Shown one piece after another: positions 37,425 to 41,284 of a stretch of 64,000 nucleotides of DNA; the first letter of the stretch is position 1, and the number at the start of each line of letters is the position of its first letter. The stretch covers positions 1-64,000 of the forward strand of contig JAJCYP010000022.1 in NCBI GenBank assembly GCA_029262855.1, read 5' to 3'. The position numbers and the translations under genes were made by a program. The DNA is from Bacteroidota bacterium (lineage in GTDB: Bacteria > Bacteroidota > Rhodothermia > Rhodothermales > UBA10348). The notes under the pieces were generated by a model that made no database searches, was not told where the DNA came from, and saw only the letters and a list, made by a program, of their open reading frames with translations.

Positions 37425-38237
37425 CTAGTGGCGGACCATCACGATGTTGTGCGTCCGGGTGGCAGCATCGTAGGAGGAGCGTTCCTCGTCGTACGTGTAG
37501 CCGTCAGGGTGTCGCCACGAAAGTAGCGGCTCGATATCCTCGAGCGTCTCCCGCACAATGAAGTTGACCAGCCGTCCGCGAAGGGGCACCTGCTCATCGA
37601 CCCGTGTCATCGTGCCGCCGATGTTTCGAAGGAAGGTCACACGAACCATCGAGCTGTACGTCATCTCATTGTCCCACATAGCTTCGTGAGGCTCGGACAG
37701 CAGATTCCAGACGAGCTGGTTCTTGATGGTCTGATTCAGGGGGGCGGAAATCCGCGGCCTCCAGTATTCCAGGGTGGATCCGATGTCGGGGACGACCGCA
37801 TCAATGCCGAGGCGGTACCGTGGGATGAGATCGTCCGGCCGCAACAGCCCGAACAGGCCCGAGAGGATCACGCCCTCTTCCAGAAGTCGACGTTGGGCGC
37901 CCGTTGGGAGCCCGGGAAAGTCCATCGCCTTGTACATCACGCCTGGACCGTACCGATCCAGGGCGGACATGAGGGGAGCCTTGTAGATCTGTCGATTAAC
38001 CTCGACCCAGTCCACGTCGCCATCATCGGCAATGGTCCCAAACAAGGCGTCCTGATCTTCGACACCCCCTGCGATGGACGCTTGCAGCGCGTCAATGAGC
38101 GCACGCCGATCCGTGTTCAGGGAATGGAAGTAGTTGAACGTGTTCGACGAGCGATAGTCGAACATGTCGGGAGCAAACGGATTGCCACCATCAGTCTTTG
38201 GGCCAGCAGAAGGGAGCAGAATGGAGAAATTTGGCAT
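37425..38237 (-). CDS. yaaA: YaaA-family (DUF328) peroxide-stress protein
   Basis: The 270-residue protein starts MPNFSILLPSAGPKTDGGNP and contains VILSGLFGLLRPDDLIPRYRLG and, near the C-terminus, VNFIVRETLEDIEPLLSW, all typical of YaaA/UPF0246. In E. coli the protein lowers intracellular iron damage under H2O2; the biochemical activity may involve DNA binding. The ATG shares one base with the preceding stop (TGATG). Confidence 0.88.
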   Translation of the reverse strand: MPNFSILLPSAGPKTDGGNPFAPDMFDYRSSNTFNYFHSLNTDRRALIDALQASIAGGVEDQDALFGTIADDGDVDWVEVNRQIYKAPLMSALDRYGPGVMYKAMDFPGLPTGAQRRLLEEGVILSGLFGLLRPDDLIPRYRLGIDAVVPDIGSTLEYWRPRISAPLNQTIKNQLVWNLLSEPHEAMWDNEMTYSSMVRVTFLRNIGGTMTRVDEQVPLRGRLVNFIVRETLEDIEPLLSWRHPDGYTYDEERSSYDAATRTHNIVMVRH

Positions 38238-38557
38238 CAGCCGGTTTTCCGGTGCTCTCGCATTTCGCCGATCAGGTTGTCGATATCGGCACGAATCTGC
38301 TCGGCCTTCTCCTCGGCGTCGGCCACAAGGGCGTTGCCGTCACGGCGTGCGTCGCCCGACTCATCCGGATTGAGGACATCCTCCAGAAGCTCGGAAACGC
38401 GGTTCCCGAGGTGGTCCAGTTGGTACGCAAGACGACGCCGAACCTTGCGTCCCTCTTCCGGGGCCGTGATCAGGCCAAGTCCGAAACCGACGATACCGCC
38501 GGCGACTACGCCCCAAAACCATGCACGCGCACTGCGTCCTATTCCGTTATCACTCAT
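38237..38557 (-). CDS. YtxH-domain small membrane protein
   Basis: The 106-residue protein (ATG 38557) has one N-terminal helix (AWFWGVVAGGIVGFGLGLITAPEEGRKVRRR), the typical G-x-x-x-G...APxxGxxxR pattern of YtxH proteins, then a charged coiled-coil tail. YtxH proteins are linked to general stress responses, but their mechanism is unknown. It is translationally coupled to yaaA. Confidence 0.8.
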   Translation of the reverse strand: MSDNGIGRSARAWFWGVVAGGIVGFGLGLITAPEEGRKVRRRLAYQLDHLGNRVSELLEDVLNPDESGDARRDGNALVADAEEKAEQIRADIDNLIGEMREHRKTG

Positions 38558-38681
38558 GGAACCGGCTGGATTATTTGACCCATTCAACCGGCCGACATGC
38601 GAACCAGTTTCCGGGAGAAGACATACGAACTCAGAATATGTGGATTGCTCCATGGAGCCAATCGGCGCCAATCCACCTAGA

Positions 38682-38777
38682 CTAATTCTTCTTCTTCTTG
38701 TGCCGATTCTTGCGCAGGCGCTTCTTGCGCTTGTGCGTCGCAATCTTGTGTCGCTTACGCTTCCGACCGCAGGGCAT
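38682..38777 (-). CDS. AURKAIP1/COX24-domain ribosomal protein (bL38-like), 31 residues
   Basis: ATG 38777 to TAG 38682 encodes MPCGRKRKRHKIATHKRKKR followed by LRKNRHKKKKN. The high Arg/Lys/His content and the K-R-K-R-H-K-(I/M)-A-T-H-K-R-K-K-R-x-R-K-x-R core match the small AURKAIP1/COX24 protein of Bacteroidota, described as a ribosomal protein (bL38) and related to mitochondrial mS38. It is a lineage marker. A very good promoter match lies upstream (38817-38848). Confidence 0.9.
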   Translation of the reverse strand: MPCGRKRKRHKIATHKRKKRLRKNRHKKKKN

Positions 38778-38816
38778 ATTCAGTGTTGCTTGGAGAAAAA
38801 AATCTGTGGCAGAAGA

Positions 38817-38848
38817 AAAAGGTACCCTTGCAGCCATCCTCATACAAA
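38817..38848 (-). promoter_or_regulatory. Bacteroidota-type promoter of the bL38-like gene
   Basis: On the minus strand TTTG (38848-38845), 20 bp, then TACCTTTT (38824-38817) matches TTTG-N19/20-TAnnTTTG except for the last base. Transcription would start about 30 bp before the ATG at 38777. Confidence 0.7.
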
Positions 38849-39046
38849 CTGATTCCGTATGAAGAGGGCGCCGTCTGCCGGTCAGGGTTCAGCCCGTGAG
38901 ATCCCGCAGTTTGTGCCGCCCTCACCAGGAATGAACGCGCATCAGGAATCATTGTTTGAGAGAACGAATGGAAGTCCAAAATCCTCTCGTTTCTGTATAT
39001 TCCGGAGCGGAAAGGCCAACGAGTAGTCGGCCGGCCCCACCGAATA

Positions 39047-39844
39047 ATGACGCACACCGACTACACAATCCACACCAAGGCAGGCTTCCGATACGCCGAC
39101 GAGGGTCCCTCGCACGGCAAGGGGCCCATCCTGCTACTCCATGGCATGATGGGGGAGGTCGGGAACTGGGAGCACACCATCGGCACGCTTGCCAGCGAAG
39201 GCTATCGGGTCTTGGTACCGATCCTGCCCTTGTACGGAATGCCCATGAAGCAAACGCATCTACCAGGCCTGGTGGACTTCGTTATCTCCTTCATGGATGA
39301 AATGGGGGTCTCAAGCGCGGTCGTGAGCGGGAATTCCCTCGGCGGCCATATTGCGCTCCTTCTTGCCATCGGGCACTCGGACCGGGTCCGTGCCTTGATC
39401 CTGGCGGGTGCTTCCGGGATCTACGAAGTGGATATGGGCCAGTCGGTCATGAGACGAAAGGACCGCGACTACCTGCGAGAGCGTGCCGCCATCACGTTCT
39501 ATGACCCGAAGCATGCCACCGAGGAGTTGATTGACGACGTCTACAAGACGGTCAATGATCGGACGCGAGCGGTTCGGCTGATCAAGATGGCGCGTTCGGT
39601 CAAAGCGGAGAACGTCCGGGATGAGTTGGACACCATTGAAGTACCGACCCTGCTGGTCTGGGGGCGTGATGATGAGATTACTCCGCCGGATGTGGCCGTG
39701 ACGTTCAATGAGCTGATTGGCAGTTCGGAATTGCACTGGATCGAGGAATGTGGGCACGCCCCGATGATGGAGCGGCCGGAGCAGTTCAACGAGATCGTGC
39801 TTGATTTCCTGGGACGGGTGACGGCATACGAGGCGGTGGCGTGA
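39047..39844 (+). CDS. Alpha/beta-hydrolase
   Basis: The 265-residue soluble enzyme has the oxyanion stretch ILLLHGMMGEVGNWE, nucleophile Ser in VSGNSLGGHIALLLA, acidic residue around VWGRDDEITPP and His in ECGHAPMMERPE. It could be an esterase, lyase or C-C hydrolase; the sequence does not fix the substrate. The stop overlaps the next start (GTGA). Confidence 0.85.
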   Translation: MTHTDYTIHTKAGFRYADEGPSHGKGPILLLHGMMGEVGNWEHTIGTLASEGYRVLVPILPLYGMPMKQTHLPGLVDFVISFMDEMGVSSAVVSGNSLGGHIALLLAIGHSDRVRALILAGASGIYEVDMGQSVMRRKDRDYLRERAAITFYDPKHATEELIDDVYKTVNDRTRAVRLIKMARSVKAENVRDELDTIEVPTLLVWGRDDEITPPDVAVTFNELIGSSELHWIEECGHAPMMERPEQFNEIVLDFLGRVTAYEAVA

Positions 39845-40896: not shown

Positions 40897-41264
40897 GGGG
40901 ATGTCACGGTTTCGACGGGTGGTATGATTCGTCAGACTGCGCTCCGAGCCATTCTTGGTGATGCTCGTTAATACTCCCAAGAACATTGCAACTGCGAACG
41001 ATTACTCGTACGCGATGACGGCTTAGTTCCGTTATCTGTCTCTAGCTCGCCTGATCATTGGTGGGTCGTGAGGCATCATGCTTAATGATCTAGCGCCTCA
41101 GACGCCGTCTGAGTACTGAGGCGCGAAATTTTATCAGACTGTGCTTTCGGGTCGCCTTGTTGACTGGCAATGGCCCGCGAGCGAGAACCCCAATAGGTCA
41201 GCTATGAGCGTAGACGTCTGGCAGGACATTCATTCGGACGCGGGTTCGACTCCCGCCATCTCCA
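40897..41264 (+). ncRNA. ssrA: tmRNA (SsrA)
   Basis: The gene starts GGGGATGTCACGGTTTCGACGG and ends GGTTCGACTCCCGCCATCTCCA, and the two ends pair as a tRNA-like acceptor (GGGGATG with CATCTCC). It rescues stalled ribosomes together with SmpB. The tag frame around 40992-41027 reads ATANDYSYAMTA then TAG; the exact resume codon is uncertain, so the tag may be the shorter ANDYSYAMTA. CCA is not encoded. A strong terminator follows. Confidence 0.93.
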
Positions 41265-41284
41265 CTGGGCAGGACCCCAATAGG

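Follow-up and report, generated by a model that had tools for sequence, protein, structure and literature searches.

Which protein is encoded by a very short, highly basic open reading frame (ORF) in a Rhodothermales genome, how is it transcribed, and how widely is it kept among relatives? We addressed these questions in the window, by which we mean the whole 64,000-nucleotide stretch of DNA analysed; the features of the locus are listed in Table 1. Direct reading of the minus strand gives the peptide MPCGRKRKRHKIATHKRKKRLRKNRHKKKKN, of which 18 of the 31 residues (58%) are Lys or Arg, within the range of about 28-33 residues and 55-65% basic residues given for the small ribosomal protein bS22 (PMC10085706).

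Table 1. Positions of the features at the bS22 locus and nearby in the window.
Feature	Position	Strand	Remarks
bS22 coding sequence	38777-38682	minus	31 codons and TAG; ATG at 38777-38775, stop at 38684-38682
TTTG, -33-like element	38848-38845	minus	Direct reading; TTG invariant in three members of the genus
TACCTTTT, -7-like element (consensus TAnnTTTG)	38824-38817	minus	GGTA and its spacing unchanged in three members of the genus
Putative mRNA leader, about 35 nt	38812-38778	minus	Placed from the position of the -7 element
YtxH-like gene, 106 aa	38557-38237	minus	PF12732, E 5.5e-13; directly downstream of bS22
YaaA/DUF328-family gene, 270 aa	38237-37425	minus	PF03883, E 1.9e-28; conserved neighbour
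Divergent alpha/beta hydrolase gene	39047-39844	plus	PF00561, E 7.6e-22; conserved neighbour
388-aa ORF starting at GTG	37686-38852	plus	Antisense across yaaA, ytxH and bS22; likely a shadow ORF
tmRNA gene	40897-41265	plus	Tag peptide ANDYSYAMTA

A phmmer search of the peptide against the PDB at E values up to 10 returned three distinct chains: 7jil_5 (E 1.8e-9), 9i5v_10 (E 2.5e-9; labelled 'AURKAIP1/COX24 domain-containing protein') and 8fmw_V from Borrelia (E 5.9e-8; labelled '30S ribosomal protein bS22'). A family profile, which itself includes the structural bS22 chains, matched those chains at E 2e-15 to 2.6e-14. The peptide is homologous to the structurally defined bS22 chains of the Bacteroidota/spirochaete type, and the first-pass annotation was right to call the gene ribosomal and AURKAIP1/COX24-like. 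The bS22 of F. johnsoniae (7jil chain 5, known here through PDB labels and later papers) is 83% identical over 30 residues and shares its length and start with the window peptide; it differs in having Ser at residue 3, where the window has Cys, and Ala at residues 21 and 23. That of Borrelia burgdorferi (8fmw chain V) is 82% identical and shares the MPCGRKRK start, although the deposited chain has 28 residues and the gene has a GUG start and a different gene setting (PMC10618245). Mycobacterial and cutibacterial bS22, mitochondrial mS38 (AURKAIP1/COX24) and eukaryotic eL41 occupy the same small-subunit pocket (PMC10618245, PMC10085706); none of them was matched from the window's family by sequence or profile searches at E up to 10, and the F. 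johnsoniae and C. acnes proteins are only 37% identical to each other (PMC10085706). The gene is of an already familiar kind, bS22 being known from ribosome structures of related bacteria, and is ordinary for the phylum.

In those structures, bS22 is described as a short basic helix that lies in the 30S pocket of h2/h27/h44/h45 and touches 23S H68, and the F. johnsoniae protein is placed likewise (PMC10618245); C. acnes bS22 also sits there, with a contact to 23S H67 (PMC10085706). By analogy with these relatives, the window bS22 most likely binds in the h27/h44/h45 pocket of the 16S rRNA (h2/h27/h44/h45 in the fuller description) and most likely adopts its bent-helix shape only when ribosome-bound. 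There it would neutralise packed phosphates and touch 23S H67/H68 across the subunit interface. In related 16S genes the sequence of this pocket is conserved. We consider it improbable that the peptide is also active off the ribosome, for instance as an antimicrobial: a synthetic version of C. acnes bS22 is inhibitory to bacterial growth and to translation in vitro (PMC10085706), but any such basic helix could inhibit at high dose, and neither a secretion signal nor a linked export gene was seen at the window gene.

Within the ribosome, the first-pass annotation had named the gene bL38-like. That protein is described as a separate 50S component whose beta strands contact uL6 and 23S H95/H97, and the Borrelia ribosome contains both bS22 and bL38 (PMC10618245). 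The window peptide does not fit this description (a 50S location with beta strands by H95 and uL6), through which bL38 is known here (PMC10618245): phmmer matched it to the Borrelia bS22 chain and to none of the other chains of 8fmw at E up to 10. Since its matches are to bS22 chains and bL38 is a distinct 50S protein, we conclude that the gene encodes bS22 and that the earlier name was an error or, at most, a confusion of labels. Some PDB depositors do label the F. johnsoniae family sequence '50S ribosomal protein L38', and chain 5 of 7jil carries this label together with '30S ribosomal protein S22', which makes it a possible source of the misnomer; a 50S bL38 nonetheless appears very improbable.

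Codon comparison of the window bS22 with 64 distinct Rhodothermales coding sequences revealed 754 synonymous and 38 non-synonymous differences, a pattern that marks the ORF, at the level of sequence comparison, as being under purifying selection and coding far beyond chance. The first 29 residues were identical in most family members at the relatives' loci. A chance or pseudogene Lys/Arg-rich ORF resembling bS22 in composition only can be dismissed with near certainty, for the frame, although short, of low complexity and lacking a curated profile match, is defended by this codon pattern, by the constancy of those 29 residues and by its fixed position beside ytxH. The ORF list gives a 53-aa version starting from a further in-frame ATG at 38843; however, the extension overlaps the promoter and is unconserved, and in 36 of 65 distinct relatives a stop codon interrupts its frame, so the short start is the right one. 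Judged from these alignments, the start conserved among relatives is the ATG at MPCG, and the gene is real; with its 31-codon ORF, its matches to chains of solved ribosomes and its codon pattern, the 31-residue ribosomal gene originally proposed holds. We also observed a long antisense ORF on the opposite strand (Table 1), which could lead a gene caller to drop bS22.

A check against the AURKAIP1/COX24 profile had been suggested for this gene, and the lack of a match had been named as a refutation. The Pfam scan gave no PF08213 (COX24_C) match in the peptide or the genome. When PF08213 was run against seven bS22 sequences, including the F. johnsoniae, 9i5v and Borrelia chains, six were missed and one scored E 0.24; because the profile misses nearly all bona fide bS22 tried, its negative result here carries no weight, and the suggested check is blind in this branch. 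NCBIfam likewise gave no match for the window peptide or for any of the seven sequences scanned. PF08213 thus overlooks Bacteroidota and spirochaete bS22, chains from solved ribosomes among them.

The claim that the peptide carries Cys at residue 3 where relatives usually have Ala was contradicted. Cys occupied this position in all 31 relative loci, two of them being the window's own, and in 54 of the 60 named Rhodothermales loci with bS22, the other six having Ser (hand count); the two sets partly overlap, some records being common to both. Among loci of other families of the phylum, 34 were taken, four of one genus escaped the pattern (one of which reads MPSG), and the remaining 30 comprised 26 with Cys and four with Ser. 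The Borrelia protein, too, starts MPCG. Ala was found at residue 3 in none of the Rhodothermales, other-family or Borrelia sequences examined. An unusual Cys was therefore rejected; Cys is the norm and Ser the alternative.

To place the genome, we used the neighbouring YaaA protein as a profile, which recovered 77 loci from named genomes. The closest of these, from a 'Rhodothermales bacterium', showed 89% identity, and the cultivated matches include Roseithermus, Salinibacter, Salinivenus and Longimonas. The bS22 of Roseithermus (locus L094) is identical to the window peptide over residues 1-30. These named relatives place the genome in the Rhodothermales, Bacteroidota. The first-pass placement in or near Bacteroidota stands on this basis; the promoter motif from which it had been drawn is insufficient alone. 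bS22 was encoded in 39 of 41 relatives, in 376 of the 395 phylum genomes sampled and in 88 of 114 genomes of the order, nearly always once.

The gene order is kept across the order: a divergent hydrolase gene, then bS22-YtxH-YaaA and usually a uridine-kinase-like gene (Udk). YtxH came next after bS22 in all 29 relative loci and in all 60 named loci with bS22. A gap of 124 nt separates the two genes in the window, and their position makes ytxH a probable operon partner with which bS22 is perhaps co-transcribed. Elsewhere in the window we noted a tmRNA gene, which is covered by spurious ORFs in the ORF list.

The reported consensus for the Bacteroidota primary sigma factor is TTTG near -33 and TAnnTTTG near -7 (PMC7366714, PMC9723704). 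Upstream of bS22, the motif TTTG-N20-TACCTTTT agrees with this consensus, the two elements being separated by 20 bases and TACCTTTT lying 39 bases from the ATG. We scored such motifs over the three positions of TTG and six of TAnnTTTG, allowing spacers of 17-21, for a maximum of 9; the bS22 motif scored 8/9, and its -7 box agrees at 7/8 positions when n is counted as free. The whole window contains 12 sites scoring at least 8 with an exact TTG on both strands, so that a chance site in a given one-strand stretch of about 100 nt would be an event of about 1%. Among 150-base upstream regions of the order, 19 of 66 distinct ones scored at least 8, whereas the corresponding figures were 5.9% for dinucleotide shuffles and 4 of 66 for the reverse complements; at the motif level, enrichment across the order appears only modest. 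Two other genomes of the genus keep TTG and GGTA at the same spacing, while the -7 box of G001 departs from the consensus. Enrichment, conserved spacing in the genus and agreement with the consensus together argue that TTTG-N20-TACCTTTT is probably a promoter, and the near-consensus motif noted in the first-pass annotation was confirmed as a motif. Transcription would probably start near 38812, 5 nt beyond the -7 element and about 35 nt before the ATG, and the putative leader contains a pyrimidine/A-rich stretch, CAGATTTTTT, that is conserved in the genus. A sigma-70-type promoter and an intrinsic terminator were looked for near bS22, and none was found. Taken as a whole, we are highly confident in an account in which the gene encodes the 30S protein bS22, probably transcribed from a Bacteroidota-type promoter and most likely located in the h2/h27/h44/h45 pocket.

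The 77 named loci comprised 60 with bS22, 16 without it and one contig (L103) that starts inside YaaA. All 16 loci without bS22 (hydrolase-ytxH intervals L065, L068, L071, L075-L078, L080, L083-L087, L090, L106 and L107) keep YtxH and YaaA, and 15 also keep the hydrolase. A three-gene tree groups them into a single clade of halophilic relatives, that of Salinibacter, Salinivenus and Longimonas (support 0.89; deeper nodes poorly resolved). A hidden, diverged bS22 in these intervals was rejected: no 20-residue stretch in any of them holds more than 10 Lys/Arg, and the family motif is missing throughout. A whole-genome profile search of the order agreed: in family f13, bS22 was present in three genomes (genus g198) and absent from at least 18, a count that leaves aside six more no-match genomes of the order. 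Two bS22-less genomes of the order in other families are 78% and 89% complete. Family f13 includes Salinibacter altiplanensis and Salinivenus lutea, the loci of G228 and G363 matching the named records at 100%.

Absence was patchy in genus g36, from another family of the class, where single-sequence and profile searches found no bS22 in four of the eight sampled genomes (G255, G298, G310 and G367). The other four (G117, G183, G275 and G381) encode a more diverged form, exemplified by L167, MPSGKKRKRSKIAKHKRKKRLRKNRHKKK. The remaining absences in the phylum sample concern eight genomes of families f27 and f40, all of them assemblies of at least 230 contigs, one of which shows a 13-residue bS22 piece.

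A change in the 16S pocket alongside the loss was also rejected, as six genomes without bS22 and six with it showed no pocket difference. The 16S columns specific to the Salinibacter family lie outside the pocket, except for position 21 near h1/h2 and the pair 1427/1473 in far h44. In a separate observation, the 3' ends of L155 and L156 (16S of G363 and G450) align as ...CACCTCCA and not as CACCTCCT, which may be an end effect. Nor does salt emerge as a simple cause of loss, since ORF composition in 20-kb stretches of 23 genomes fails to tell those with bS22 from those without it; the crude ORF caller produces false ORFs in GC-rich DNA, which makes this comparison weak evidence. The excess of D+E over K+R was 0.003-0.030 in six Salinibacter-family genomes without bS22 and 0.023-0.030 in three with it, and 0.036-0.046 and 0.040-0.058, respectively, in the four g36 genomes without and the four with bS22. 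In a literature text search pairing bS22 with Salinibacter, halophiles, Rhodothermus or YtxH, bS22 was absent from the matches listed; the loss may still have been reported.

We tentatively propose, as a possibility that we consider rather doubtful, that bS22 is dispensable under salt-in physiology and that a single loss removed it from the Salinibacter-Salinivenus-Longimonas clade, where the flanking genes and the 16S pocket were retained. If this is true, the pocket in the bS22-less ribosomes must be occupied by ions or by a different peptide, and the clade's ribosomes would provide a natural bS22-free comparison for those of close relatives.

The gene itself is a routine, well-conserved bS22, and wider interest attaches only to its loss in the halophilic clade. 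The analysis establishes as real a very small ribosomal gene to which curated profiles are blind in this branch and corrects its name, and the conserved neighbourhood offers a means of finding bS22 genes. The clean, clade-wide absence would allow a pocket peptide like mS38 and eL41 to be studied through natural ribosomes with and without it.
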